Source: Streptomyces sp. NBC_01298 (GTDB lineage: Bacteria > Actinomycetota > Actinomycetes > Streptomycetales > Streptomycetaceae). From it: a stretch of 64,000 bases of DNA. Each line of letters opens with the position of its first letter. The first letter of the stretch is position 1. A program made the translations under genes and the position numbers. Below the pieces are notes generated by a model, which was not told the DNA's origin, made no database searches, and worked only from the letters and a program-made list of their open reading frames with translations. The stretch spans positions 7,378,001 through 7,442,000 of the forward strand of contig NZ_CP108414.1 of assembly GCF_035978755.1 (NCBI RefSeq). Reading direction: 5' to 3'. Positions 23,168-36,357 of the stretch are shown here, in pieces.

Positions 23168-24039
23168 CGTGCGCCTCCGACCGTCGGGTACGGGAACTTC
23201 ACGCCGACGCCGCCGTCCACCACCAGCGTCTGGCCCGTCATGTACGAGGACTGCGGCGAAGCCAGGAAGTACAGCGCGGCCGCGATGTCCCGGGTCTCCG
23301 CGACCCGGCCCAGCGGAGCGTTCTCCGCGTTGAGCCGGCGTCCCTCGGGACCCAGCAGGGCGGCGACCCGCGGGGTCCACACCACCCCCGGTGCCACCGC
23401 GTTGACGCGTACCCCGCGCGGGCCCAGCTCTACCGCCGCCGAGCGCACCAAGGACATCAGGCCGGCCTTCGCGGCCCCGTACGCGGCGTGCAGGGGGGCC
23501 GCGGTGAGCCCGGAGACGGAGGCGACGAAGACCAGCGGTCCGCCGCCGGCCGCCGCGACGGCCTCGCCGCCGTACTGGACGGCCAGCCAGGCGTGCCGCA
23601 GAACCAGGTCGAAGTGCCAGTCCCAGCCCTCGTCGTCCAGCTTGGGCAGCGCGGCGTACCGGGCCATGCCGACGATGTCGACGACCCCGCCGACCGGGCG
23701 GCCGCCGAGCAGCTCCGGCGCCGCGGCGAAGAGCTCCCGTACGGCCTCGCGCCGCGTGACGTCGGCGGCGTACGGGACGCCCCCGGTCTCGGCGGCGACC
23801 GCCCGGGCCCGCTCCTCGTCCAGGTCCACGCACAGCACGCGGGCCCCGCCCGCGGCCAGCGCGTGCGCGGTCTGCCGGCCGATGCCGTTGCCGGCGCCGA
23901 GCAGGACGAGGGCGCGGCCGTCGAGGCGGTGCAGGGCGGCGTAGTCGGGGACGGGGGAGGTGTCGGGGGAGGCGTCGGGGACGGGGGAGGTGTCGGGGAC
24001 GGAAGCGGCATCGGCGGACGACTCGGGGCCGCCGCTCAC
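23164..24039 (-). CDS. SDR family NAD(P)-dependent oxidoreductase
   Basis: 291 aa. After a 30-residue Pro/Asp/Ser-rich leader with repeated SPVPD units, the Rossmann fold begins with the cofactor motif GAGNGIGRQTA. VDLDEERA after strand 2 suggests NAD preference. The catalytic Ser lies in VASVSG and Tyr/Lys lie in YGAAKAG. The C-terminus DGGVGVKFPYP is typical. The GTG start overlaps the luciferase-like stop (GTGA) and the stop overlaps the SGNH start (ATGA). The oxidised or reduced substrate is presumably shared with its two operon partners and is unknown. Confidence 0.88.
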   Translation of the reverse strand: MSGGPESSADAASVPDTSPVPDASPDTSPVPDYAALHRLDGRALVLLGAGNGIGRQTAHALAAGGARVLCVDLDEERARAVAAETGGVPYAADVTRREAVRELFAAAPELLGGRPVGGVVDIVGMARYAALPKLDDEGWDWHFDLVLRHAWLAVQYGGEAVAAAGGGPLVFVASVSGLTAAPLHAAYGAAKAGLMSLVRSAAVELGPRGVRVNAVAPGVVWTPRVAALLGPEGRRLNAENAPLGRVAETRDIAAALYFLASPQSSYMTGQTLVVDGGVGVKFPYPTVGGAR

Positions 24040-25160
24040 GCGGAGGCCTTCCGGGGCGTGTAGCGGGCCAGCTCCGGGATGACTTCCTTGCCCAGGATCT
24101 CCAGGGTCCGCAGGATCTCCCGGTGCTCCAGGTATCCCCACTGGACGTAGCAGATGAGCTGGTCGACGCCGAGGTCCGCGTACCGCTTGGCCTTGGCGAC
24201 GATCGTCTCCGCGTCCCCGATGAGGATCATGTCCCCGTCGCTGAACTCCCGTACGGGTACGTTCCCTTCGAGGATCGGCGTGAGCAGCGGGAAGGTCCGC
24301 TCCCGCTCCTCCGGGCTCAGGTGCGGCAGCTCCCAGTCCAGGGTGAACCGCGCCAGGTTGGAGTACCACCAGGCGACCGACTCCCAGACCCGCGGGCCCG
24401 GCTCGGCGCGCGGCCCGGTCGCGTGGACCAGGGTGTAGGCGGCGACCCGGTCCGTGGTGACGTCGGTGAGGGGGCTCGGGGCCGCGGCCGCGGCCCGGTA
24501 GGCGGCCACCTGCGCGGCCATGGCCTCCAGCGGCTGCATGATCGAGAAGGAGAGCAGCCCCAGGCCGTGCGCGCCCGCGACCTCGGCGGAGCCCGGGGAG
24601 GTGGCCGCCATCCAGGCGGGCGGGTGCGGATCCTGCACCGGCTTGGGGGTGACCATGCGGCGCGGGAAGCTGAAGCGCTCCGACTCGTACGCGAAGTACT
24701 CCTCGCGCCACATTCCGGTCACGATTTCGATGGCCTCGCGCCAGTCCTCGCGGGACTTCTCCCGGTCCACCCCGAAGGCCGCCTGTTCCATGGGCGTGGA
24801 CCGGCCGGTGCCCCATTCCACCCGGCCGCCGGAGAGCACGTCGACGGTGGCGACCTTCTCAGCGATGCGCTGGGGCGGGGTGAAGGCGAAGGGGGTCAGG
24901 GTCACGCCGAAGCCCAGTCGGATCTGCTCGGTGAGCCCGGCCAGGTGTCCGAGGAGCACCTCGGGGGCCGGGCAGTGCGAGCGGCCCTCGCGGAAGTGGT
25001 GTTCGACCGCCCACACGGTACGGAAGCCCATGCGGTCGGCGAGCCGGATCTGTTCCACCGCCTCCCGGTAAGCGCGCTGCTCAGCGGCCCGCTGGCCGTG
25101 CGGGTGGGCTCCCCGCCAGGGCCGCGGCACGTCGATCTCGTAGAGCACGTCCAGGTCCAT
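24036..25160 (-). CDS. LLM-class (luciferase-like) flavin-dependent oxidoreductase
   Basis: 374 aa with the bacterial luciferase TIM-barrel pattern: RLADRMGFRTVWAVEHHF, GFGVTLTPFAFTPPQRIAEK, and VDVLSGGRVEWGTGRS. The C-terminus has IGDAETIVAKAKRYADLGVDQ. It is the first gene of the operon with the SDR and SGNH genes. Members use FMNH2 or F420, and the sequence alone does not decide between them. A reaction sequence of flavin oxygenation, carbonyl reduction and ester cleavage is a reasonable but untested reading of the operon. Confidence 0.85.
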   Translation of the reverse strand: MDLDVLYEIDVPRPWRGAHPHGQRAAEQRAYREAVEQIRLADRMGFRTVWAVEHHFREGRSHCPAPEVLLGHLAGLTEQIRLGFGVTLTPFAFTPPQRIAEKVATVDVLSGGRVEWGTGRSTPMEQAAFGVDREKSREDWREAIEIVTGMWREEYFAYESERFSFPRRMVTPKPVQDPHPPAWMAATSPGSAEVAGAHGLGLLSFSIMQPLEAMAAQVAAYRAAAAAPSPLTDVTTDRVAAYTLVHATGPRAEPGPRVWESVAWWYSNLARFTLDWELPHLSPEERERTFPLLTPILEGNVPVREFSDGDMILIGDAETIVAKAKRYADLGVDQLICYVQWGYLEHREILRTLEILGKEVIPELARYTPRKASA

Positions 25161-25216: not shown

Positions 25217-25300
25217 GCGCAGTGATCGATCATCCCCGCGCAACAAAGGACCATCCAGGACAGATCCGCGCAACGATCAGTCGCCTATGTGCAAGGATGG
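25217..25300. promoter_or_regulatory. Phased GCGCAACGA-type motif array upstream of the permease/AsnC operon
   Basis: Within the 309-nt gap 25161-25469, four related sites occur. They are GCGCAGTGATCG (25217), GCGCAACAAAGG (25238), GCGCAACGATCA (25268) and GTGCAAGGATGG (25289). Spacings are 21, 30 and 21 nt, close to whole helical turns. A perfect palindrome TGATCGATCA sits at 25223-25232. The same motif with spacings 31 and 22 lies upstream of davA. The adjacent Lrp/AsnC gene is the obvious candidate binder, since such octamers wrap phased sites. Inference from pattern only. Confidence 0.5.
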
Positions 25301-25469
25301 TGCATTACGGGCGGTATCACTCAGCTCGTAGGCTCACTCGCTGTACGTGGAGTGGCGTGGACCGCCTGCTCGGCGGTCCCCCATGCCCAGGCCCTTGCGG
25401 CCTGCTCCTGCTCCGGACCGCTGCGGTCGACGCCTGAAACCCCACCCGCAGTGACAAAGGAGTCCCCTC

Positions 25470-26954
25470 GTGCTCGACCACGGCCAGGCGCCACCGCTCA
25501 CGTCCGCGCGCCCCAAGGCGGCCCACCCCCTGCTGCGCCGCAAGCCGGTGGAGCAGCTGGTCGCCGAGGGCGGCCAGGGCGAGGGCGGGTCCCTGCGCCG
25601 CTCGCTCACCATGTGGCAGCTGACGATGATCAGCATCGGTGCGACGCTCGGCACCGGCATCTTCGTCGTCCTCGGCACCGCGGCCCCCAAGGCCGGTCCC
25701 GCCGTCACGATCTCCTTCATCATCGCGGGCCTGACCGCCCTGTTCTCGGCCCTCTCCTACGCGGAGCTGGCCGGATCGGTGCCGGTCTCCGGATCCTCGT
25801 ACTCGTACGCCTACGCCACCATGGGCGAACTCGTCGCCTGGGTCTGCGGCTGGTGCCTGATCCTGGAGTACGGGGTCTCCGTCGCGGCGGTCGCCGTCGG
25901 CTGGGGCGAGTACCTCAACGAATTCCTCGACGGCACGATAGGGATCACCATCCCGGAGAGCGTCTCCGCCCCGCTGGGCGAGGGCGGCTTCATCAACCTG
26001 CCGGCGCTCGTCGTCGTCCTGCTCGCCATGGTCTTCCTCATGCGCGGAGCCAAGGAGAGCGCCCGGATCAACTCGATCATGGTCGGCGTGAAGATCGTCA
26101 CCCTGCTGCTCTTCATCGGCATCGGCGCCATGGGCATCAAGTCCGGCAACTACTCGAACTTCAACCCGCTCGGCCGGGACGGTGTCATGGCCGCGGCCGG
26201 CACCCTCTTCTTCTCCTACATCGGCTTCGACGCCGCCTCCACCGCCGGTGAGGAAGCGAAGAACCCCAAGCGCGACCTGCCCCGCGCGATCATGCTCTCG
26301 CTGTTGATCGTCACGGTCCTCTACGTCCTCGTCGCCTTCGTCGCCGTCGGCGCCATGCCGTGGCAGGACTTCGAGGGCACCGAGGCCGCGCTCGCCCAGA
26401 TCATGACCGACGTCACCGGCCACAGCGTCTGGGGCGTCGTCCTCGCCGCGGGCGCCGTCGTCGCCATCGCCTCGGTCGTCTTCGCCGTGCTCTACGGACA
26501 GACCCGAATCCTCTTCGCGATGTCCCGCGACGGCCTCGTGCCCAAGGCGTTCGGCAAGGTCAACGCGCGCACCGGCGTTCCCCGCGCGAACGTGGTGATC
26601 GTCGGCCTCTTCTGTGGACTCCTCGCCGCCACCATCCCGCTCGGCAAGCTGGCCGACGCCACCAGCATCGGCACGCTCTTCGCCTTCGGCCTGGTCAACG
26701 TCGCCGTGATCATCCTGCGCTTCACCCGCCCGGACATGCCGCGCACCTTCAAGGTGGCCCTGTTCCCGCTCACGCCGATCCTCGGCTTCCTGGCCTGCGG
26801 CTGGGTGATGTGGAGCCTCGACGCCGTCACCTGGCAGGTCTTCGGTGGCTGGATGGCCGTCGGGCTCGTGATCTACTTCCTCTACGGCATCCGCCGCTCC
26901 CGACTGGCCACAGCCCAGCCGACCGCTACGCAGTCGGCCGCAGCAGAGAAGTGA
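25470..26954 (+). CDS. APC-family amino-acid permease (cationic amino-acid transporter-like)
   Basis: 494 aa with about twelve to fourteen hydrophobic helices. TM1 has the unwound glycine motif SIGATLGTGIFVVLG, followed by APKAGPAV. The TM6 region reads FFSYIGFDAASTAGEEAKNP, a signature of the cationic amino-acid transporter branch. The GTG at 25470 has AAAGGAG eight bases upstream. An Lrp/AsnC regulator gene follows after 10 nt. The upstream motif array is shared with the davA-davB operon, so lysine is a plausible cargo, by context only. Confidence 0.88.
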   Translation: MLDHGQAPPLTSARPKAAHPLLRRKPVEQLVAEGGQGEGGSLRRSLTMWQLTMISIGATLGTGIFVVLGTAAPKAGPAVTISFIIAGLTALFSALSYAELAGSVPVSGSSYSYAYATMGELVAWVCGWCLILEYGVSVAAVAVGWGEYLNEFLDGTIGITIPESVSAPLGEGGFINLPALVVVLLAMVFLMRGAKESARINSIMVGVKIVTLLLFIGIGAMGIKSGNYSNFNPLGRDGVMAAAGTLFFSYIGFDAASTAGEEAKNPKRDLPRAIMLSLLIVTVLYVLVAFVAVGAMPWQDFEGTEAALAQIMTDVTGHSVWGVVLAAGAVVAIASVVFAVLYGQTRILFAMSRDGLVPKAFGKVNARTGVPRANVVIVGLFCGLLAATIPLGKLADATSIGTLFAFGLVNVAVIILRFTRPDMPRTFKVALFPLTPILGFLACGWVMWSLDAVTWQVFGGWMAVGLVIYFLYGIRRSRLATAQPTATQSAAAEK

Positions 26955-26964
26955 TCCACGCGCA

Positions 26965-27420
26965 GTGCGACTGAACGATCTCGACGAACGCATCGTGCAC
27001 GCCCTGGCCAAGGACGCCCGCCGCTCCTTCGCGGACATCGGCTCCGAGGTCGGACTGTCCGCCCCCGCCGTGAAGCGGCGCGTGGACCGGCTGCGCGCCG
27101 AAGGAGCCATCACCGGCTTCACCGTCCGCGTGGACCCCGCCTCGATGGGCTGGGAGACCGAGGGCTTCATCGAGATGTACTGCCGCCACAACACCTCGCC
27201 GGACGACATCCGGCGGGGCCTGGAGCGCTACCCCGAGGTGGTGTCCGCGTCGACCGTCACCGGCGACGCGGACGCCCTCGTCCAGATCTTCGCCTCCGAC
27301 ATGCGGCACTTCGAGCGGGTCCTGGAGCGGATCGCGGGCGAGCCCTTCGTGGAGCGCACCAAGTCCGTGCTCGTCCTCTCCCCGCTGCTGCGCCGCTTCA
27401 CTTCCGGCGCGCCCGCGTAG
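26965..27420 (+). CDS. Lrp/AsnC family transcriptional regulator
   Basis: 151 aa, normal for the family. The N-terminal helix-turn-helix (residues about 3-50) reads LDERIVHALAKDARRSF then IGLS-like VGLSAPAVKRRVDRL. The C-terminal RAM ligand domain shows VVSASTVTGDADALVQIFA, including the conserved GDAD turn. It is the second gene of the permease operon (10-nt gap, GTG start). Lrp/AsnC proteins bind amino acids and wrap phased DNA sites, so it may act on the arrays at 25217-25300 and 33646-33710. Its last 23 nt overlap the convergent WhiB gene. Confidence 0.9.
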   Translation: MRLNDLDERIVHALAKDARRSFADIGSEVGLSAPAVKRRVDRLRAEGAITGFTVRVDPASMGWETEGFIEMYCRHNTSPDDIRRGLERYPEVVSASTVTGDADALVQIFASDMRHFERVLERIAGEPFVERTKSVLVLSPLLRRFTSGAPA

Positions 27421-27838
27421 CGGGGCCGCTCCGCCCGGTCCGTCCCTCCGGTGCGGTGGCCGCCGCGGCCGCGAGGGCAGCCGGGCTCCTGCCGGTCCTG
27501 CGGGAGCGGACGAGCAGCGTGCGGCGCTCCTCCTCGGTCAGGCCGCCCCACACTCCGTACGGCTCCCGCGTGCGCAGGGCGTGCTCCAGGCACGCCGCGC
27601 GCACCGGGCAGTCGGCGCAGACCCGCTTCGCCGCCGCGTCGCGCTCCTCCCGGTCCTCGCCCCGCTCGCCCGCGGGGTGGAAGAACCGGTTCGAGCCGAG
27701 TGCGCGGCAGGCCGCGCGCAGCTGCCACTGCCAGTGGTGGGAGCCCGGACCGGGCTGGGCGGCACCGGCCGATATCCGGGGAGTCGGGGGCGCGGGGGTC
27801 GCAGTGGTTGTGCCGGCCCTGGAGGCCCTGTGGGTCAT
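27398..27838 (-). CDS. WhiB-family iron-sulfur regulatory protein
   Basis: 146 aa. The four cluster Cys are present: one in RAACRALGSNRFFHP, two in CADCPVRAAC and its final Cys. The GVWGG turn and a basic stretch (EERRTLLVRSRRTGR) follow. These bind a [4Fe-4S] or [2Fe-2S] cluster and work through the principal sigma factor. Between the first and second Cys lies a charged loop (AGERGEDREERDAAAK). An N-terminal extension of about 50 residues and a basic Ala-rich tail flank the core. The ATG at 27838 has AAAGGAA upstream. Convergent overlap of 23 nt with the AsnC gene. Which Wbl subclass it belongs to is not clear. Confidence 0.9.
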   Translation of the reverse strand: MTHRASRAGTTTATPAPPTPRISAGAAQPGPGSHHWQWQLRAACRALGSNRFFHPAGERGEDREERDAAAKRVCADCPVRAACLEHALRTREPYGVWGGLTEEERRTLLVRSRRTGRSPAALAAAAATAPEGRTGRSGPATRARRK

Positions 27839-27913
27839 GACGGTTCCTTTCGCGCTGCGGTCGCCGGATGCTCTCCTGCGCGTGTGACCGCTCCGCACGG
27901 CACCAAACCCCCG

Positions 27914-28008
27914 CCGGCCGCATGCCCGACCCCGGATCCCCGCGGCCCCGCCCGGACCCCGCAGCCCCCGGCCACATGCCCGACCCCGGATCCCCGCGGC
28001 CCCGCCCG
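27914..28008. repeat. 54-nt-period direct duplication in an intergenic region
   Basis: The segment 27914-27954 recurs at 27968-28008 with one mismatch. The core CATGCCCGACCCCGGATCCC and onward is identical over 34 nt. It lies between the WhiB start and the stop of a luciferase-like gene. It contains no ORF of note and looks like a local tandem duplication. Confidence 0.85.
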
Positions 28009-28031
28009 CCCGAGCCCCGTAAGGGTCCGCG

Positions 28032-29177
28032 CTACCAGCGCAGATGCCCCCGGCGGGCCCACTCCCCGGCCAGCAGCCGGTACGAGCGCACCCGGTCGGC
28101 GTGCCCGTGCGTGATCGTGGTTATCAGCAGCTCGTCCGCGCCGGTCGCCTCCCACAGCCGCTCCAGCGCGTCGGCGACGGTGGCCGGGGAGCCGGCGAAC
28201 TGGGTCTCCACCCGGTCCGCCACCAGCTCGTGGTCGGCCGCCGACCAGTCCCGGGTCAGCGCGCGGGCCTCCCCGGGCGTGGGGAAGGGGATCGCGCCGT
28301 CGCCCGTCCTGATGCCGTGCACCCAGGGCGCGTACCCGGCGGCCAGTTCCCGGGCCTCGTCGTCGTCCGGAGCGACCACCACGTCGGCGGACACGCTCAG
28401 GTACGGCCGGTCCAGCCCGCCCGGCTCCGCCGAGGGCTTGAAGGCCGCCCGGTAGGCCTCGGCGGCCTCCAGCACGCTCGCCGGGCTCACGTGGTAGTTC
28501 GCCGTGAACCGCAGCCCGCCCGCCCCGGCCGTCTCCGCGCTCACCCCCGCACTGCTGCCCAGGATCCACACCTGCACCTCGGCCCCCTCGCCGGGTACGG
28601 CGTGCCCCTCCACGCCCTCCGGCGTTCGGTACTCCCCGCGCAACAGGGCCAGTACGTCGCCCACTTGCTCGGTGTACTCCTGCGGCGTGGCACCCGGCAG
28701 CTGCAGCAGCCGGTTGTGGAGCGCGATGCGCGGGTGATCTCGCAGGTGGGCGAAGGAGAACGGCTTCGGTATGCGCAGCCCGTTCGCCGTGGTGTACGCC
28801 ACCGGCGGCTCGGCGCCGGCCCGGCGCGCGGGCGGGCCGCCCGCCGAGCGGCCCAGACCGAGGTCGATCCGCCCGGGGTGCACCGCGTCCAGCAGGCCGA
28901 ACTCCTCGACCGTGGACAGGGCCGTGCGGTGCCCGAGCTGGACCGCCCCCGAGCCGATCCGGATCGTGGAGGTGGCCGAGGCGGTCAGCGCCAGCACGAC
29001 GGCGGGCGAGGTCCCCGCGACACCCGTGTTCAGGTGGTGCTCGGCGAACCAGTAGCGGGTGTAGCCGAACCGCTCGGCCTGCCGGGCCAGGTCTACGGTG
29101 GAGCGCAGGGCCTCGGCCGCCGTGGAGCCGGACGGGATCGGGATGAGGTCGAGGACCCCGAGCGGGATACCGGGCAT
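28032..29177 (-). CDS. LLM-class flavin-dependent oxidoreductase (MsnO8-like)
   Basis: 381 aa. Luciferase-like barrel with RFGYTRYWFAEHHLNTGVAG, TIRIGSGAVQLGHRTAL and HPGRIDLGLGRSAGG near the N-terminus and GSPATVADALERLWEATGADE near the C-terminus. These marks match the group annotated as MsnO8-type oxidoreductases. It is the most downstream of three luciferase-like genes on this strand (72 nt after the previous one). FMNH2 or F420 use and substrate are unknown. Clustering behind a leader peptide suggests a role in oxidising organosulfur compounds. Confidence 0.85.
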   Translation of the reverse strand: MPGIPLGVLDLIPIPSGSTAAEALRSTVDLARQAERFGYTRYWFAEHHLNTGVAGTSPAVVLALTASATSTIRIGSGAVQLGHRTALSTVEEFGLLDAVHPGRIDLGLGRSAGGPPARRAGAEPPVAYTTANGLRIPKPFSFAHLRDHPRIALHNRLLQLPGATPQEYTEQVGDVLALLRGEYRTPEGVEGHAVPGEGAEVQVWILGSSAGVSAETAGAGGLRFTANYHVSPASVLEAAEAYRAAFKPSAEPGGLDRPYLSVSADVVVAPDDDEARELAAGYAPWVHGIRTGDGAIPFPTPGEARALTRDWSAADHELVADRVETQFAGSPATVADALERLWEATGADELLITTITHGHADRVRSYRLLAGEWARRGHLRW

Positions 29178-29249
29178 GGTGTGGCCCCTTCTCTGTGACG
29201 GCTTCGGATGCGGGCCCGCGGGCCCGGACGTGTCGCTGGTCGGCGCGCT

Positions 29250-30617
29250 TCAGCCGCGGACCGGGGCGAGCGTGCGCGGCGCGGCCAGCCCGAGGTGGTC
29301 GCGCAGCGTCGGGCCCTCGTACTCCCGGCGGAACACCCCGCGCTCCTGGAGCAGCGGGACGACGGTGTCCGCGAAGGCGTCGAGCCCGCCGGGCGTCAGG
29401 TGCGGGACCAGGATGAATCCGTCGGCCGCGTCCGCCTGGACCAGGCCGTCGATGGCCTGGGCGACGGTGAGGGGCGAGCCGACGAAGGACTGCCGGGCGG
29501 TGGTCCGTATCACCAGCTCCCGGATCGACAGGCCCTCGGCGGCGGCCAGCTCCCGCCACTCCCGCGCGACGGCCACCGGGTCCCCGTGCATGCGCACGCT
29601 CGCCCGCCCCAGCGCGATGGTGTTCTCCCCGGGCTCGGGATCGACGTCCGGCAGCGGCCCGTCCGGGTCGTAACCGGACAGGTCCCGGTTCCACACGTGC
29701 TCCAGGTACTTGATCGCGGTCGCCCCGCTGACCTGCTGGAGCCGCACCTCGTGGGCCAGTTCCCGCGCCTCGGCGTCGGTGTCGCCGAGCACGAAGCTCG
29801 CCGCCGGCAGGATCTTCAGCTCGTCGGGGGTGCGTCCGTACCGGGACAGGCGCCCCTTCACGTCCGCGTAGAAGGCGCGGCCCTCCTCCAGCGTGCGGTA
29901 CCGGCCGAAGATGGCGTCCGCGGAGGCCGCGGCGAACTCCCGGCCCTCGTCCGAATCGCCCGCCTGGAAGATCACCGGCCGCCCCTGGGGGCTGCGCGGC
30001 ACGTTGAAGTGCCCGGAGATGTCGAACTGCTTGCCCCCGTGGGCGAAGGCGCCGGGGCCCGCGTCGCGCAGGAACTCCCCGGAGACCGGGTCGGCGAGGA
30101 TCTCGCCGCCGTCCCAGGAGTCGAAGAGCTCGTGGGCGGTGTCGAGGAACTCCTTCGCCCGCTCGTAGCGTTCCTCGCGCGGCAGGAAGCCGCCGCGCCG
30201 GAAGTTCTCGCCGGTGAAGGCGTCCCAGGAGGTGACCACGTTCCAGGCCGCGCGGCCCCCCGACAGGTGGTCGAGGGAGGCGAACTGGCGGGCCACCTCG
30301 TACGGTTCGTTGAAAGTGGAGTTGATGGTGCCGGTCAGCCCGAGGTGTTCGGTGACGGCGGCGAGCGCCGCCAGCACGGTGAAGGTGTCCGGGCGGCCCA
30401 CCACGTCCAAGTCGTATATCTCACCGCCCTGTTCGCGCAGGCGCAGACCCTCGGCGAGGAAGAGGAAGTCGAACTTCGCGCGCTCGGCGGTCCGTGCGAA
30501 ATGGACGAAGGAATCGAAGTCGATCTGGCTCCCGGCGGCCGGATCGCTCCACACGGTGGTGCTGTTGACCCCGGGGAAGTGCGCTGCGAGATGGATCTGC
30601 TTGAGCGGCTTGCTCAT
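29250..30617 (-). CDS. NtaA/SnaA/DszA-type FMN-dependent monooxygenase
   Basis: 455 aa, matching the long NtaA/DszA branch of luciferase-like monooxygenases. The N-terminus IHLAAHFPGVNSTTVW is typical, as are LDHLSGGRAAWNVVTS and FQAGDSDEGREFAA. DszA and NtaA relatives cleave sulfones or aminopolycarboxylates using reduced FMN from a partner reductase. No flavin reductase is encoded nearby. The ATG at 30617 lies 26 nt after the preceding luciferase-like gene, so the two are probably cotranscribed. Confidence 0.87.
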   Translation of the reverse strand: MSKPLKQIHLAAHFPGVNSTTVWSDPAAGSQIDFDSFVHFARTAERAKFDFLFLAEGLRLREQGGEIYDLDVVGRPDTFTVLAALAAVTEHLGLTGTINSTFNEPYEVARQFASLDHLSGGRAAWNVVTSWDAFTGENFRRGGFLPREERYERAKEFLDTAHELFDSWDGGEILADPVSGEFLRDAGPGAFAHGGKQFDISGHFNVPRSPQGRPVIFQAGDSDEGREFAAASADAIFGRYRTLEEGRAFYADVKGRLSRYGRTPDELKILPAASFVLGDTDAEARELAHEVRLQQVSGATAIKYLEHVWNRDLSGYDPDGPLPDVDPEPGENTIALGRASVRMHGDPVAVAREWRELAAAEGLSIRELVIRTTARQSFVGSPLTVAQAIDGLVQADAADGFILVPHLTPGGLDAFADTVVPLLQERGVFRREYEGPTLRDHLGLAAPRTLAPVRG

Positions 30618-30643
30618 GGCTGCTGTCGGTCCTTCCTGGGGGA

Positions 30644-31837
30644 TCAGGCGGCGGGAGAAGAAGCGGGGGAGGTGGCGGCGGCGAGGGGGGCCGCGTACCG
30701 GTTCGCCGGGCGTGCCAGCCCCAGCAGGCCGCGGAGCGAGGAGGCCTCGTAGGCCTGCCGGAACACCCCGCGCCGCTGGAGCTCCGGGACCAGGCCGCGG
30801 GTGATCGCCGGCAGGTCGTGCGCGAGCACCCCCGGCCGCAGCCGGAAGCCGGTCAGCCCGGCCTCCCGCCACTCCAGCAGCAGGTCGGCGAGGTCCGCCG
30901 GAGTCCCCGCGAACACGCGGGCGTCACTCGTGTACGCGGCCCCGTGCGCGGCGTCCAGCCGCTGGAGCCGCCGCTCCGCCGTGGCTTGCCGCTCGTCGAG
31001 GAAGACCGTCAGCTCGCCGAACAGATGGGGGGTGGCGGGGAGCGCGGCGACGGCGGCGCGGACCTCGCCGGCGTCGTGCGCCGTCACGTAGCCGATGTCG
31101 GCCGACCGGGCGAGGAAGGGGTACACGGCGGCGTCGGAGGCCAGTGCGCTGACCGGGGGCAGGCCCTGGGGCGGCCGGGGGGTGATGGAGGGACCCTTCA
31201 CGCTGAAACGGGGGCCCTCGAAGTCGATGTAGTGCAGTTTGGCGCGGTCGATGAACCGACCGGTGGCCACGTCCCGGATCTCGGCGTCGTCCTCCCAGCT
31301 GTCCCACAGCCGCCGCACCACCTCGACGTGGTCGGCGGCTTCCGCGTACAGCTCGGTCGGGTCCAGGGGCGTCGTACGGCGCCCGAAGTGGCCCACCTCG
31401 TCCGGGCGTTCGGAGATCTGGATGCGCAGCCCGGCGCGCCCGCGGCTCACGTAGTCCAGGGTGGCGAGCGCCTTGGAGACGTGGAAGGGCTCCGTGTGGG
31501 TGGCCACCACGCTCGGCACCAGCCCGATGTGCCGGCTGAGCGGCGCCACCCGGGCGGCGACGAGCACCGCGTCGAGCCGGCCCCGCACCAGGTCGGTGCG
31601 GCCGTCGGGCCCCGCCGGATCGGTGGACTGCAGGCTCAGCGAGTCCTCGAAGGTGACGAAGTCCAGCAGTCCCGCCTCCGCCTCGGCGACGAGCGCGGCC
31701 CAGTGGCCGGCGGTGAACAACCGGTCGGCTCCGGCCCCCGGTTCGCGCCAGGCGGCGGGATGCCAGCCCGCGCCGTCGAGGGCGACGGCGAGGTGGAGCG
31801 CGGGGGAGGGGGAGGAGGGGGAAGGGTGCACGGGCAT
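30644..31837 (-). CDS. LLM-class flavin-dependent monooxygenase
   Basis: 397 aa. Luciferase-like fold with HLAVALDGAGWHPAAWRE, LVPSVVATHTEPFHVSKALA and LDYVSRGRAGLRIQIS. It is closest in style to the NtaA/DszA group but shorter and divergent at the C-terminus. The ATG has AGGAGG upstream and is 61 nt after the leader-peptide stop, making it the first enzyme gene behind the leader. The substrate is unknown; a sulfur-scavenging oxygenase is the contextual guess. Confidence 0.85.
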   Translation of the reverse strand: MPVHPSPSSPSPALHLAVALDGAGWHPAAWREPGAGADRLFTAGHWAALVAEAEAGLLDFVTFEDSLSLQSTDPAGPDGRTDLVRGRLDAVLVAARVAPLSRHIGLVPSVVATHTEPFHVSKALATLDYVSRGRAGLRIQISERPDEVGHFGRRTTPLDPTELYAEAADHVEVVRRLWDSWEDDAEIRDVATGRFIDRAKLHYIDFEGPRFSVKGPSITPRPPQGLPPVSALASDAAVYPFLARSADIGYVTAHDAGEVRAAVAALPATPHLFGELTVFLDERQATAERRLQRLDAAHGAAYTSDARVFAGTPADLADLLLEWREAGLTGFRLRPGVLAHDLPAITRGLVPELQRRGVFRQAYEASSLRGLLGLARPANRYAAPLAAATSPASSPAA

Positions 31838-31898
31838 GACGGAACTGCCTCCTGATCGGACGGCGCGGCGAAGAACGAATCGGATCGCGGAACGCTGA

Positions 31899-32009
31899 TC
31901 AGGAACGACAGAGGCAACCGGCGACGCGCAGGAGGTCGATGTGCGCGCGGGAGTGCAGGTGGACGGAGCGGCGCGGGGTGAGGGCGGCGCCGGCGGTTCG
32001 TACGGTCAT
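31899..32009 (-). CDS. Putative leader peptide (HIDLLRV type, Cys-containing)
   Basis: A 36-codon ORF with an excellent context (ATG at 32009, TGA at 31899). The peptide ends HIDLLRVAGCLCRS after a basic/Ala-rich start. Short peptides with an H-x-D-L-L-R core and Cys near the end are widespread in Streptomyces, ahead of genes for sulfur assimilation. The two Cys codons near the end suit a cysteine-responsive attenuation role. Three luciferase-like genes follow. A second, unrelated-context copy of the motif is at 32985-33101. Function is inferred; existence as an ORF is seen directly. Confidence 0.75.
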   Translation of the reverse strand: MTVRTAGAALTPRRSVHLHSRAHIDLLRVAGCLCRS

Positions 32010-32052
32010 GCCCTGCCACCCCCTTCCACCTCGTGTTCCGGCCGTCCCTCCG

Positions 32053-32081
32053 ACGCTAGATCAGGGGAGACCGGGCCACAA
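32053..32081 (-). promoter_or_regulatory. Possible promoter of the leader-peptide/luciferase-like operon
   Basis: On the minus strand TTGTGG (-35, 32081-32076), a 17-nt spacer and TAGCGT (-10, 32058-32053) lie about 45 nt before the leader ATG. The match is fair, not perfect. A TTGACA slightly upstream lacks a -10 at the right distance. Confidence 0.4.
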
Positions 32082-32102
32082 CGGGTGGAATGTCAATCCG
32101 TG

Positions 32103-32810
32103 TTAACGCTTCGTGTCGGGCGTGCGAAGCCCGATGAAGACCGGCTCGCGGCGCAGGGTGAAGCCCATCGAGAGGTACAGCCCCACGGCGTGGGTGTTCT
32201 GCGCCGCGGCGTGCAGGAACGGGGCGTCCCCGCGCTCCTCCACGGCGGCCGCGACCGCGCGGACCAGCCGTCCGGCGAGCCCCTCGCCACGGTGGTCGGG
32301 ATGCGTGCACACGGCGCTGATCTCCGACCAGCCCGGCGGCCGCATCCGCTCGCCCGCCATCGCGACGAGCCGGCCGCCCCGGCGGATCCCGAGGTACGTG
32401 CCCAGCTCGACGGTGCGCTCCCCGAAGGGGCCGGGCCGGGTCAGCTCGACCAGCTCCAGCATCTCGGGCACGTCGGCGGGCCCCAGCAGGACCGCCTCCG
32501 GCTCCTCCTTGCCGCGGACCGCCCGGCCGTCGAGCTGCACGCCCGGTATGGACATCAGGGTCTCCCAGCCCGCGGGCGGGGTCGGCAGCCCGGTCACCCA
32601 GACCTCCCGGCCGGGGCCGGTGAGCTCGGCCAGATCCGCCCAGGCCCGCGGATCCTCCGGGTCGTGGAGGGCGGCGAAGGGCGATACGCCGGCCGCGTAC
32701 CGGGCGGCGAGCCCGGCGGGACCGGCCTCGGCGAAGCCCTGGTGCGGGCCGCCCAGCGCGGCCCAGACGGGATTGTCGAGGACTGCGTCGGGCCGGGACT
32801 CGCGGGACAT
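32103..32810 (-). CDS. GNAT family N-acetyltransferase
   Basis: 235 aa. The C-terminal half has the acetyl-CoA binding motif ICT-like VCTHPDHRGEGLAGRLVRAV followed by NTHAVGLYLSMGFTLR. The N-terminal half is a divergent GNAT-like or helical region. The start ATG at 32810 has GGAAGG about 12 nt upstream. It stands alone between the two leader peptides. Five 11-bp repeats lie just upstream of its start. The acceptor substrate is unknown. Confidence 0.82.
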   Translation of the reverse strand: MSRESRPDAVLDNPVWAALGGPHQGFAEAGPAGLAARYAAGVSPFAALHDPEDPRAWADLAELTGPGREVWVTGLPTPPAGWETLMSIPGVQLDGRAVRGKEEPEAVLLGPADVPEMLELVELTRPGPFGERTVELGTYLGIRRGGRLVAMAGERMRPPGWSEISAVCTHPDHRGEGLAGRLVRAVAAAVEERGDAPFLHAAAQNTHAVGLYLSMGFTLRREPVFIGLRTPDTKR

Positions 32811-32840
32811 GGGCGGGAGCTTCCTTCCATCGGGAGCAGA

Positions 32841-32905
32841 CACTCGTACGGCACTCGTACGGCTGGTCCGACACTTGTGCGGTACTCGTAAGGCAACTCG
32901 TGCGG
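32841..32905. repeat. Array of five 11-bp CACTCGTACGG repeats upstream of the GNAT gene
   Basis: Copies begin at 32841 and 32852 (both CACTCGTACGG), 32872 (CACTTGTGCGG), 32883 (TACTCGTAAGG) and 32895 (AACTCGTGCGG). Spacings are 11, 20, 11 and 12 nt, i.e. about one or two helical turns. The array sits 31-95 nt upstream of the GNAT start and in the divergent gap with the second leader peptide. It looks like a multi-site operator, although repeat growth by slippage is possible. Confidence 0.65.
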
Positions 32906-32984
32906 GCGGTCTTGACGGCCCCTGGCGGTGCCACGAGACTGCGAACGCCAGCCTAATGGGGGCAGCGGACAGGAAGGGGACCCG

Positions 32985-33101
32985 GTGAACCAGCTCGCCA
33001 CACCCTCCTCCTCCACCACCCCGCTGCGCCGCTCCTGGCTCACCCGCCGGCTGCACATAGATCTCCTCCGCGTCTGCAGCGCCACGGCCCCGGCCTCCTG
33101 A
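32985..33101 (+). CDS. Second putative leader peptide (HIDLLRV type)
   Basis: A 38-codon ORF starting at GTG (32985) after AGGAAGGGGA and ending at TGA (33099-33101). The peptide contains LHIDLLRVCSATAPAS, sharing HIDLLRV with the leader on the opposite strand 1 kb away. One Cys codon follows the motif directly. It ends 48 nt before the thioredoxin-like gene, which it presumably controls in response to cysteine or sulfur state. Confidence 0.72.
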   Translation: MNQLATPSSSTTPLRRSWLTRRLHIDLLRVCSATAPAS

Positions 33102-33149
33102 GGCCCCGCCGAGCACGCACGTACGTACGCAGACAGACCGAGGAGAGCC

Positions 33150-33605
33150 ATGCCCCAGACGCATGTCCAGACCCCTGCCCAGACCCCTGCCCAGGCCCAT
33201 GTCCAGGGTCCTGCCCAGGCCCCTGCCCAGACCCCGATCCAGCCCCGCCGGCCCGAGGTCCTCCGGGGCCGGATCGGGACCGGCTTCTCGCCGGAGCCGC
33301 ACCGGTACCGGCTCTACGTGGCCGCCGACGACTGTCCGAGCTGCCTCGGCGTCACCGCCGCCTTCGCCGACCTGGGCCTGCGGGACACGGTCGCCCTGAC
33401 CGTGCTGCGGCCCGGCTCCGACCCCGCCGGGCACGAGGCGCTGCGCCGCGCCTACGAGGCCGCCGGGCACGACCACGACGGGACGCTCACCGTCCCCGCG
33501 CTCTGTGACGGCTGGAGCGGCCGGGTGGTCTCCAACCACGCTCCCGACATCCTGGAAGACCTGCGCAGGCTGAGCGTGCACCCGGCCTTCCGTCCGGGCC
33601 GGTAG
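33150..33605 (+). CDS. Thioredoxin-like protein resembling the N-terminal half of glutathionyl-hydroquinone reductases
   Basis: 151 aa. Residues 36-150 recall the N-terminal thioredoxin domain of the Ecm4/YqjG family: RYRLYVAADDCPSCLG, then LTVPALCDGWSGRVVSNHAPDI. In those enzymes the site reads CPWA. Here it is CPSC (Cys62 and Cys65), giving a CxxC pair as in true thioredoxins. The C-terminal helical GST domain is absent. Residues 6-31 are a PAQ/HVQ repeat coded by 12-nt units. The gene has a GAGGAG ribosome site and follows a leader peptide. A thiol-redox role is likely. The family match is from memory and moderate. Confidence 0.65.
   Translation: MPQTHVQTPAQTPAQAHVQGPAQAPAQTPIQPRRPEVLRGRIGTGFSPEPHRYRLYVAADDCPSCLGVTAAFADLGLRDTVALTVLRPGSDPAGHEALRRAYEAAGHDHDGTLTVPALCDGWSGRVVSNHAPDILEDLRRLSVHPAFRPGR
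33168..33246 (+). repeat. 12-nt tandem repeat encoding PAQ-type units
   Basis: About six in-frame copies of a 12-nt unit (ACCCCTGCCCAG, with variants such as GCCCATGTCCAG) encode the N-terminal TPAQ/AHVQ/APAQ tract of the thioredoxin-like protein. Confidence 0.8.
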
Positions 33606-33645
33606 ACCCCCCGAAAAGGCCTTTCGGACCGTTCGCGGAGCCCTC

Positions 33646-33710
33646 GCGCAACGAATCGCCGCTTTCTCCCGCCGATGCGCAACGAATCGATGCGCGGCGC
33701 GCAACGGTCG
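33646..33710. promoter_or_regulatory. Phased GCGCAACGAATCG repeats upstream of davA-davB
   Basis: GCGCAACGAATCG occurs exactly at 33646-33658 and 33677-33689, and a variant GCGCAACGGTCG at 33699-33710. Spacings of 31 and 22 nt match the 30 and 21 nt spacings of the same motif upstream of the permease/AsnC operon. The last site is about 73 nt before the davA start. A small hairpin (CCGAAA with TTTCGG, 33611-33627) precedes the array and may end the upstream gene. Confidence 0.55.
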
Positions 33711-33782
33711 CGCCTTGTCGCGGTCGAACGCACGAACGTACCGTTGAGGGACCCCCACCCCTCCTGCCACAGAGGTCCGCCC

Positions 33783-34583
33783 ATGCCCCCGTTGCGCACC
33801 GCCCTCCTCCAGAGTTCCGGACGGCTCGGCGACACCGCCGACAACCTGAAGGCGCTCGAAGAGGCCGTGGCACGCGCCGCACAGGCGGGGGCCGGGCTCC
33901 TCGTGACCTCGGAGATGTTCCTGACCGGCTACGCGCTGGAGATCGAGGACATCGCCCGGCTCGCCGAACCGGCCGACGGCATGTCCGCCCGCGCCATCGG
34001 CGAGATCGCCCGCCGACACGGGCTGGCCGTGCTCTACGGCTACCCCGAGCGGGACGGCGACGCCGTCTACAACGCGGCGCAGCTCGTCGGCCCCGACGGG
34101 GAGCGGCTCGCGAACTACCGCAAGACCCACCTCTTCGGCGGCTTCGAGCAGGCGGCCTTCACCCCGGGCGACACCCCGGTGGTCCAGGCGGACCTCGGCG
34201 GCCTGCGCGTCGGCGTCATGATCTGCTACGACGTGGAGTTCCCCGAGAACGTCCGGGCGCACGCCCTCGCCGGCACCGACCTCCTCCTGGTGCCGACCGC
34301 GCAGATGCACCCGTTCCAGTTCGTCGCCGAACAGCTGGTACCCGTACGGGCCTTCGAGAACCAGATGTACATCGCGTACGTCAACCGCACCGGCCCGGAA
34401 GGCGAGTTCGAGTTCGTCGGGCTCAGCTGCCTGGCCGGCCCGGACGGGACCACACGGACCAGGGCCGGGCGCGGCGAGGAGCTGGTGTTCGGCGAGGCCG
34501 ACCCCGAGCTGCTGCGCGTCTCGCGCGAGACCAACCCGTACCTGCGAGACCGCCGCCCCGGGCTGTACGCCTCGCTCGTCTGA
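33783..34583 (+). CDS. davA: Carbon-nitrogen hydrolase, probable 5-aminopentanamidase (delta-aminovaleramidase)
   Basis: 266 aa, a nitrilase-superfamily amidase. The catalytic triad is visible: Glu44 in TSEMFLTGY, Lys114 in NYRKTHLFG and Cys148 in MICYDVEFPEN. Length and motifs (YGYPER, NYRKTHLFG) agree with DavA of pseudomonads as I remember it. The next gene is a DavB-like lysine monooxygenase whose product, 5-aminovaleramide, is DavA's substrate. The ATG was chosen for its AGAGGT and family N-terminus; a 36-residue upstream extension in frame has no family match. Hydrolysis yields 5-aminovalerate and ammonia. The specific substrate is inferred from the gene pair. Confidence 0.82.
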   Translation: MPPLRTALLQSSGRLGDTADNLKALEEAVARAAQAGAGLLVTSEMFLTGYALEIEDIARLAEPADGMSARAIGEIARRHGLAVLYGYPERDGDAVYNAAQLVGPDGERLANYRKTHLFGGFEQAAFTPGDTPVVQADLGGLRVGVMICYDVEFPENVRAHALAGTDLLLVPTAQMHPFQFVAEQLVPVRAFENQMYIAYVNRTGPEGEFEFVGLSCLAGPDGTTRTRAGRGEELVFGEADPELLRVSRETNPYLRDRRPGLYASLV

Positions 34584-34659: not shown

Positions 34660-36357
34660 ATGACGTCCACGGTGCCCACCACCGCCGTCCCGCACAGCGA
34701 CGGACAGCTGCCGATCACGATGTTCGGCCCGGACTTCCCCTACGCGTACGACGACTTCCTCGCCCACCCGGCGGGCCTCGGGCAGGTCCCGGCGACCGAG
34801 CACGGCACCGAGGTCGCCGTCATCGGCGGCGGGCTGTCGGGCATCATCTCCGCCTACGAGCTGATGAAGATGGGCCTCAAGCCCGTCGTCTACGAGGCCG
34901 ACCAGATCGGCGGCCGGCTGCGCACGGTGGGCTTCGAGGGAGCGGGCACCGAGGAGCTGACCGCGGAGATGGGCGCCATGCGCTTCCCGCCGTCCTCCAC
35001 GGCCCTCCAGCACTACATCGACCTCGTCGGCCTGATCACCGAGCCCTTCCCGAACCCGCTCGCCGAGGCCACCCCCTCGACGGTGGTGGACCTCAAGGGC
35101 GAGACCCACTACGCCGAGACCATCGCCGACCTCCCGCAGGTCTACCGCGACGTGTCCGCCGCGTGGAACGCCTGCCTGGACGAGGGCGCCGACTTCTCCG
35201 ACATGAACACCGCGATGCGCGAGCGGGACGTCCCGCGCATCCGGGAGATCTGGGCGAAGCTCGTCGAGAAGCTCGACGACGAGACCTTCTACGGGTTCCT
35301 CTGCAAGTCCGAGGCCTTCAAGTCCTTCCGCAAGCGCGAGATCTTCGGCCAGGTCGGTTTCGGCACGGGCGGCTGGGACACCGACTTCCCGAACTCCATC
35401 CTGGAGATCCTGCGCGTCGTCTACACCGAGGCCGACGACCACCACCGCGGCATCGTGGGCGGCTCGCAGCAGCTCCCGCTGCGCATGTGGGACCGAGAGC
35501 CCGAGAAGATCGTGCACTGGGCCCAGGGCACCTCGCTCTCCTCCCTTCACGGGGGCACCCCGCGCCCGGCGGTCACCCGCCTGCACCGCACGGCGGGCAA
35601 CCGCATCACGGTCACGGACGCCTCGGGCGACATCCGCACGTACCGCGCCGCGATCTTCACGGCCCAGTCCTGGATGCTGCTGTCGAAGATCGCGTGCGAC
35701 GACACGCTCTTCCCGATCGACCACTGGACGGCGATCGAGCGCACCCACTACATGGAGTCCTCGAAGCTCTTCATCCCGGTGGACCGCCCGTTCTGGCTGG
35801 ACAAGGACGAGGAAACGGGCCGCGACGTCATGTCGATGACCCTGACCGACCGCATGACCCGCGGCACGTACCTCCTCGACAACGGCCCCGACAAGCCGGC
35901 CGTCATCTGCCTCTCCTACACCTGGTGCGACGACAGCCTGAAGTGGCTGCCGCTGTCCGCGAACGAGCGGATGGAGGTCATGCTGAAGTCCCTCGGCGAG
36001 ATCTACCCCAAGGTCGACATCCGCCGCCACATCATCGGCAACCCGGTGACCGTGTCCTGGGAGAACGAGCCCTACTTCATGGGCGCGTTCAAGGCCAACC
36101 TGCCGGGCCACTACCGCTACCAGCGCCGCCTGTTCACCCACTTCATGCAGGACCGCCTCCCCGAGGACAAGCGCGGCATCTTCCTCGCGGGCGACGACAT
36201 CTCCTGGACGGCGGGCTGGGCGGAGGGCGCGGTCCAGACGGCCCTCAACGCCGTCTGGGGCGTCATGCACCACCTCGGCGGCTCCACGGACTCCACCAAC
36301 CCCGGCCCGGGCGACGTCTACGACGAGATAGCCCCGGTCGAACTCCCGGAGGACTGA
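34660..36357 (+). CDS. davB: Flavin monoamine oxidase family, probable L-lysine 2-monooxygenase
   Basis: 565 aa. The FAD dinucleotide motif EVAVIGGGLSGIISAYEL (residues about 51-68) is followed by VVYEADQIGGRLRTV. The N-terminal ITMFGPDFPYAYDDFL and HPAGLGQVP, the mid-protein EIFGQVGFGTGGWDTDFPNS, and the C-terminal AGDDISWTAGWAEGAVQTAL match DavB of Pseudomonas closely as I recall it, including length. That enzyme converts lysine with O2 to 5-aminovaleramide and CO2. It lies 76 nt after davA with TAGGAG upstream. Related tryptophan or phenylalanine 2-monooxygenases are the alternative, but the DavA partner favours lysine. Confidence 0.85.
   Translation: MTSTVPTTAVPHSDGQLPITMFGPDFPYAYDDFLAHPAGLGQVPATEHGTEVAVIGGGLSGIISAYELMKMGLKPVVYEADQIGGRLRTVGFEGAGTEELTAEMGAMRFPPSSTALQHYIDLVGLITEPFPNPLAEATPSTVVDLKGETHYAETIADLPQVYRDVSAAWNACLDEGADFSDMNTAMRERDVPRIREIWAKLVEKLDDETFYGFLCKSEAFKSFRKREIFGQVGFGTGGWDTDFPNSILEILRVVYTEADDHHRGIVGGSQQLPLRMWDREPEKIVHWAQGTSLSSLHGGTPRPAVTRLHRTAGNRITVTDASGDIRTYRAAIFTAQSWMLLSKIACDDTLFPIDHWTAIERTHYMESSKLFIPVDRPFWLDKDEETGRDVMSMTLTDRMTRGTYLLDNGPDKPAVICLSYTWCDDSLKWLPLSANERMEVMLKSLGEIYPKVDIRRHIIGNPVTVSWENEPYFMGAFKANLPGHYRYQRRLFTHFMQDRLPEDKRGIFLAGDDISWTAGWAEGAVQTALNAVWGVMHHLGGSTDSTNPGPGDVYDEIAPVELPED

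Follow-up and report, generated by a model that had tools for sequence, protein, structure and literature searches.

It is known that Lrp/AsnC proteins can act at amino-acid genes through multiple, helically phased sites; E. coli Lrp and Bacillus LrpC are examples. We describe a related arrangement in Streptomyces sp. NBC_01298, whose genome measures 9.7 Mb. The window, meaning the whole stretch of DNA that was analysed, covers 64,000 nucleotides (contig NZ_CP108414.1, positions 7,378,001 to 7,442,000 of the forward strand). In it, arrays of CGCAAC-type sites lie upstream of an amino acid permease gene that is followed by an Lrp/AsnC-family gene (asnC), and upstream of a davA-davB pair. Unlike in E. 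coli Lrp and Bacillus LrpC systems, a three-site grammar is here tied to the promoter of a local target and conserved in several families of the class. We judge it probable, from comparison of sequences, that permease-asnC and davAB form a local AsnC regulon controlled through these arrays. A full-text literature search, which left subscription papers mostly outside its coverage, found no paper describing the operator.

Three described systems resemble parts of this locus. The roc cluster of Mycobacterium tuberculosis (Rv2319c-rocE-rocD-Rv2323c, regulator Rv2324) likewise places the gene for a regulator next to ddaH-like, rocD and permease genes. According to the available text of PMC4569260, this cluster is induced by arginine, and the neighbouring regulator Rv2324 also rises with arginine. 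It differs from the Streptomyces locus in its catabolic enzymes, and that portion of the paper mentions no operator array. The L-lysine oxidase/monooxygenase of Pseudomonas AIU 813 (3we0), with the DavB/DavA pathway, has key pocket residues that are kept in DavB, and an amidase gene next door. However, the Streptomyces DavB differs from it at positions 515, 258 and 254, and its activity on lysine is putative. Finally, the arginine monooxygenase of arginoketides (arginine-primed polyketides, azalomycin-type) shares Asp238 and Gly515 with DavB, but belongs to polyketide synthase (PKS) clusters, carries Phe516 and is rare (7 of 121 Streptomyces genomes), whereas core DavB is nearly universal.

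A preliminary description of the window had reported one motif at seven places, with spacings of 21, 30 and 21 nucleotides at the permease and 31 and 22 at davA. The positions and spacings are confirmed when the sequence is read again, but the identity of the motif is only partly so: of the seven sites, three match exactly, two deviate at one position and two at two positions. All lie on the forward strand. At the permease they are a distal fourth site (25217..25225, GCGCAGTGA, two mismatches), site 1 (25238..25246, GCGCAACAA, one mismatch), site 2 (25268..25276, GCGCAACGA, exact) and site 3 (25289..25297, GTGCAAGGA, two mismatches). At davA, sites 1 (33646..33654) and 2 (33677..33685) are both GCGCAACGA, and site 3 (33699..33707) is GCGCAACGG, with one mismatch. 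The six sites of the two three-site arrays are conserved. The spacing of the degenerate site at 25289 is kept in relatives, and 22 of 56 listed permease upstream regions have an equivalent of the distal site at 25217, 21 nucleotides upstream.

Enrichment of the lone 9-mer in the window was ruled out (20 matches with at most one mismatch, against 27.4 expected). The feature that exceeds chance is the array, not the single 9-mer. We defined a strict pattern, CGCAAYRN-N(22,23)-CGCAAYRN-N(13,14)-YGCAA, with the reversed pattern as control. In the whole genome containing the window (G000), the strict pattern occurs in exactly two places, the permease and davA arrays. The string GCGCAACGA occurs 132 times in this genome and its reversal 66 times, an excess that the two arrays do not explain and that may reflect composition.

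The 80 best DavA matches kept all belong to Streptomyces, and we examined the 80 loci around them (73-98% identity), a sample biased towards the closest relatives. Arrays were scored by matches to CGCAACGA at three sites, with spacings of 29-32 and 20-23 nucleotides and a threshold of 19 out of 24. The threshold is reached upstream of davA in all 80 loci, 78 of them with the 31/22 spacing, and in 54 of 55 usable permease regions, 52 of them with the 30/21 spacing. None of 1512 (davA) or 1022 (permease) control windows elsewhere in the same loci reaches it. The strict pattern is present in 56 of 61 Streptomyces genomes, in one or two places each, and the reversed control in none of the 61. These places were compared with genes by coordinates, and gene content was inspected in the fetched loci. 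The preliminary description had named lack of conservation of the sites in related species as grounds for abandoning its claim of a shared, helically phased array; the sites are conserved at both regions, and the claim is supported.

Some observations in these loci count against this picture. A score of 18 is reached by one of the 1022 permease control windows, and by none in the davA set. With wrong-phase spacings, 33 of 80 davA regions still attain 18 (maximum 19, compared with a mean of 22.1 for the true spacing), and so do 5 of 55 permease regions (maximum 18); here the score has a limit, since these values are carried by one or two real sites nearby. L046 is the single permease region below threshold, and the davA array is degenerate in G058 and G010. 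That the arrays are chance occurrences, or DNA that has merely not diverged, might be argued from the choice of the 80 loci as closest DavA matches and from the lack of 9-mer enrichment in the window. Since the arrays are kept where their flanks have diverged, have fixed spacing and are found in other families, we consider this explanation extremely improbable.

The array also travels with the davB unit. The two genomes of the 61-genome set that lack DavB (G037 and G050) have no strict array, and in four loci without davA (L150-L153) the array precedes davB instead. The best DavA match elsewhere in the genomes of L150, L151, L152 and L153 is 41-55% identical, and another amidase may act there. 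We had taken L156 for a natural loss of the davA array, but dropped this candidate upon finding a weakened array (ACAACGATTC, CGCAACAATTC and CGCAATATTC).

Both arrays stand in a fixed relation to predicted promoters. Downstream of the davA array, a conserved pair of hexamers on the forward strand, TTGTCG (33715-33720) and TACCGT (33739-33744), separated by 18 nucleotides, forms the predicted davA promoter (33715..33744). A TTGNNN/TANNNT pair is found at this place in 80 of 80 loci, with a spacer of 18 nucleotides in 79 and 17 in one, and the site 3 core begins 15 (78 loci) or 14 (2 loci) nucleotides ahead of TTGNNN. The predicted permease promoter (25305..25334, +) consists of TTACGG (25305-25310), 18 nucleotides and TAGGCT (25329-25334), in a block judged by eye to be conserved; measured from where the site 3 core begins, its offset in the window, also taken by eye, is 15 nucleotides as well. 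Placing the -10 element at -12 puts the starts of the davA sites near -104, -73 and -51. They would then share one helix face, immediately upstream of the -35 element, a placement like that of an activator.

This geometry suggests how the regulon may work. The Lrp/AsnC regulator would bind three CGCAAC-type sites on one helix face in front of its own operon and of davAB. Because the proximal site begins ~15 nucleotides upstream of the -35 element, AsnC most likely activates, presumably on sensing an amino acid or its product, and activation would raise uptake, the level of AsnC and breakdown together. Many Lrp/AsnC proteins both activate and repress, and AsnC might instead repress from the arrays. 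We regard repression as unlikely, as the sites are upstream of the predicted -35 element without overlapping the -10 element, and the substrate induces the similarly ordered M. tuberculosis cluster, as the available part of PMC4569260 states.

The gene for the proposed binder of both arrays (26965..27420, +) encodes 151 amino acids and begins 10 bp after the permease gene. The protein belongs to the Lrp/AsnC family, with a helix-turn-helix domain (PF13404, 8e-16) and a ligand-binding RAM domain (PF01037, 4e-15) both over cut-off, and its PDB matches are Lrp/AsnC proteins. It falls below the NCBIfam equivalog cut-offs for LysM (65.5 against 180 bits), AsnC (62 against 227) and Lrp (46.1 against 233). 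The permease gene (25470..26954, +), which has a GTG start, encodes a member of the APC superfamily that matches the Pfam amino acid permease models. It scores below the curated cut-offs for cationic amino acid permeases (TIGR00906, 317.5 against 681.7 bits; TIGR00909, 552.9 against 556.8).

The permease and asnC genes are adjacent in 59 of 59 loci, with gaps of -31 to 52 bp, and in all 70 loci that hold both asnC and davA, among the 80 fetched, asnC precedes davA in the same orientation. Permease, asnC, davA and davB are a conserved group in the fetched Streptomyces loci. The span of about 8 kb given for the regulon is atypical: asnC and davA are 157-9021 bp apart, and at most 500 bp apart in 14 of the 70 loci. 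In the window, davA is ~6.4 kb downstream of asnC, with luciferase-like oxidoreductase genes on the opposite strand between them. In the single-contig genome G012 the cluster appears split (davA at C1:8.92 Mb, davB at C1:3.15 Mb and a permease-type array at C1:5.13 Mb), through either real rearrangement or assembly error.

A class-wide sample of 296 genomes includes 268 from outside Streptomyces, and 20 of these 268 contain the strict pattern. Eighteen of the 20 arrays, in families f4, f17, f19 and f31, are within ~0.5 kb of an AsnC orthologue (50-65% identity), which is sometimes divergent from the array and sometimes has the array downstream. The genes after the array in all 18 cases are ddaH-like and rocD, which relate to arginine catabolism; davA and davB were not found at these 18 loci. 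The locus L234 has the gene content and order of the M. tuberculosis roc cluster plus a three-site array, a likeness judged on gene content and order. A -10-like element recurs too: 23 of 27 arrays outside Streptomyces (18 strict and 9 relaxed) have TANNNT 38-39 nucleotides downstream of the site 3 core, compared with 0.4% of random positions. Because other families place the same regulator and array before ddaH-rocD, the array seems to be an ancient mark of basic-amino-acid catabolism whose enzymes can be exchanged.

The association has gaps, which speak against the proposed regulon. Two of the 20 strict arrays (L233 and L236) are not beside AsnC. The AsnC search matches 85 genomes outside Streptomyces, of which 67 lack an adjacent strict array; among 20 such loci that we fetched, 9 reach the relaxed threshold. 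These 20 loci contain ddaH in 17 cases and rocD only in one. The remaining two are L251 (family f17), which holds asnC, davA, davB and permease but no array at threshold, and L255, which has none of ddaH, rocD, davA, davB and permease. Such loci, and the fact that the pairing of AsnC with the array is known through linkage and conservation, could mean that another protein binds the arrays and that AsnC is a mere neighbour. We find this quite improbable, as in several families the array accompanies AsnC, whether divergent or downstream, and with different enzymes beside it. The neighbouring AsnC is by far the best candidate for the binder, and comparison of sequences gives strong support to the small AsnC regulon first suggested for the window.

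In a midpoint-rooted tree built from 79 AsnC proteins, the 35 davAB-linked Streptomyces proteins form one clade (100/98), which is sister to 19 ddaH-rocD-linked proteins of f19 (99/93), and the other ddaH-linked proteins fall outside. The AsnC of L251 sits on a long branch. Most aligned AsnC proteins share the recognition helix LSAPAVKRR. Some Streptomyces have AsnC paralogues beside ddaH-rocD (L259-L263), each with at least one CGCAGC site mixed with CGCAA sites. The three of these that were aligned (L259, L260 and L262) have LSATAVKRR, with Thr for Pro, and L264 has LSAPAVKRR with CGCAAC. This hints at a pairing of helix residue and site sequence, seen in one clade only and with mixed sites.

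The compound involved is less clear. The preliminary description had the regulon serve uptake and breakdown of lysine or a similar amine. A basic amino acid is supported, but lysine as substrate or signal is not established, in view of the DavB pocket and the relatives at arginine loci. davA (33783..34583, +) encodes a carbon-nitrogen hydrolase, or amidase (PF00795, 3e-50), with no NCBIfam equivalog over cut-off, and its role as a 5-aminovaleramidase is putative. davB (34660..36357, +) encodes a candidate FAD-dependent L-amino-acid 2-monooxygenase/oxidase that is 59.5% identical to 3we0 over nearly its full length, as expected of a lysine 2-monooxygenase homologue. DavB keeps Arg102, Trp235, Asp238, Tyr416 and Trp516 of 3we0, and replaces Ala515 with Gly, Gln258 with His and Cys254 with Ala; the roles of these residues in the lysine enzyme follow the available text of PMC5832979. 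The pocket thus appears suited to a basic amino acid, and does not decide between lysine and arginine.

Core DavB is present in 117 of 121 Streptomyces genomes (one as a fragment, one split). A second DavB-like enzyme, 60.6-63.0% identical to DavB, occurs in seven of the 121 (L272-L278), adjoining genes that resemble CoA ligases, acyltransferases or PKSs, as judged from their sequences. From this neighbourhood, the seven are probably arginine monooxygenases of arginoketides. Residue 516 is Trp in 3we0, the window DavB and six other aligned core proteins, and Phe in all seven paralogues. With Trp516, the window DavB lacks the Phe516 taken as the mark of an arginine 2-monooxygenase, a residue that may set specificity.

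We give about an even chance to lysine as substrate and signal of the same regulon, with conversion through 5-aminovaleramide to 5-aminovalerate. All five of the pocket residues listed above are those of the lysine enzyme; yet they are kept in the probable arginine enzymes as well, except at 516, and no lysine-specific gene was recognised by eye among the 22 best-conserved neighbour clusters. The AsnC paralogue beside ddaH-rocD in some Streptomyces (L259-L264) leaves the davAB-linked copy free for another ligand. S. lividans is said, in the accessible part of PMC5082578, to have no arginine monooxygenase, yet core DavB is found in nearly all of the 121 Streptomyces genomes. The S. coelicolor arginine response comprises only 27 genes in the available text of PMC3293853, whose main text, apart from its gene tables, nowhere uses the terms amine oxidase or monooxygenase.

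Arginine as substrate and signal of the same regulon has, in our estimate, somewhat less than an even chance. DavB would then be an arginine 2-monooxygenase and DavA a 4-guanidinobutyramide hydrolase, leading towards γ-aminobutyrate (GABA). The AsnC relatives at arginine loci and the arginine induction of the M. tuberculosis cluster (available text of PMC4569260) agree with this, as does the identity of DavB to the seven PKS-cluster paralogues, which exceeds that to the lysine enzyme. All of the 20 genomes searched have a PF00491 ureohydrolase, and 4-guanidinobutyrate is turned into 4-aminobutanoate by a putative amidinohydrolase of S. mediocidicus, according to the accessible text of PMC5704753. 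However, the PF00491 genes are by coordinates not near davAB, and their linkage was rejected as a sign of arginine. A route from arginine to GABA, whose first enzyme was uncharacterised, was initially reported in S. griseus, but the available part of PMC2242806 draws it as an oxidase route through 2-ketoarginine and not through an amide. The S. lividans and S. coelicolor statements (PMC5082578 and PMC3293853, in the same portions) and the Trp/Phe difference at residue 516 also argue against arginine. We raised lysine and lowered arginine, along with the reading of the array as an old operator of arginine catabolism, because of the 2-ketoarginine route and the weak S. coelicolor response, and leave the substrate open between the two, with lysine slightly ahead.

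Two other potential clues to the substrate were discarded. Inspected by eye, and for the most part with no family search, the 22 largest clusters of davB neighbours offered nothing fitting. Five loci (L266-L270) hold DavA paralogues of 47-52% identity, which were rejected as arginoketide amidases because those stretches contain no davB.

The start of the permease leader contains a further, strongly conserved RNA-like element (25339..25385, +). It follows the predicted -10 element and consists of GCTGTACGTGGAGTGGCG and a hairpin around CTCGG; the 28 sequences of alignment A1 retain it. The element has no match in Rfam, and a strict pattern for it occurs in 4 of 246 genomes of the class, once each and all in Streptomyces. 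RNAalifold on A1, which is poorly aligned around the loop, did not select this hairpin; with 0 of 9 pairs altered on both sides, it lends covariation no support. Single-sequence folds have z-scores of -0.95 to -2.68, and one of the four (L059) formed another hairpin. A leader peptide in this region was rejected, as by eye the frame is not conserved. Four reading frames for luciferase-like oxidoreductases (window 24036-25160 and 28032-31837, both on the reverse strand) flank and separate the proposed regulon. The frame at 24036-25160 is divergent from the permease gene and ~57 nucleotides from the distal array site, and could also be affected.

The specialist interest of these arrays lies in a three-box code kept across families whose enzymes are exchangeable. 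An uncharacterised AsnC protein gains a precise, checkable operator code in several families of the class, and a nearly universal amine-oxidase/amidase pair of Streptomyces is tied to a regulator and a transporter, so that the question of lysine or arginine becomes directly testable. Clusters arranged like the arginine-induced one of mycobacteria likewise gain a candidate operator. We tentatively suggest, while thinking it rather more doubtful than not, that the array is an old operator of arginine catabolism that moved between unrelated enzyme sets, driving DdaH-RocD elsewhere and, in Streptomyces, DavAB as arginine 2-monooxygenase and 4-guanidinobutyramide hydrolase. If this is true, DavAB would be candidates for the unassigned first steps of the S. 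griseus route from arginine to GABA.

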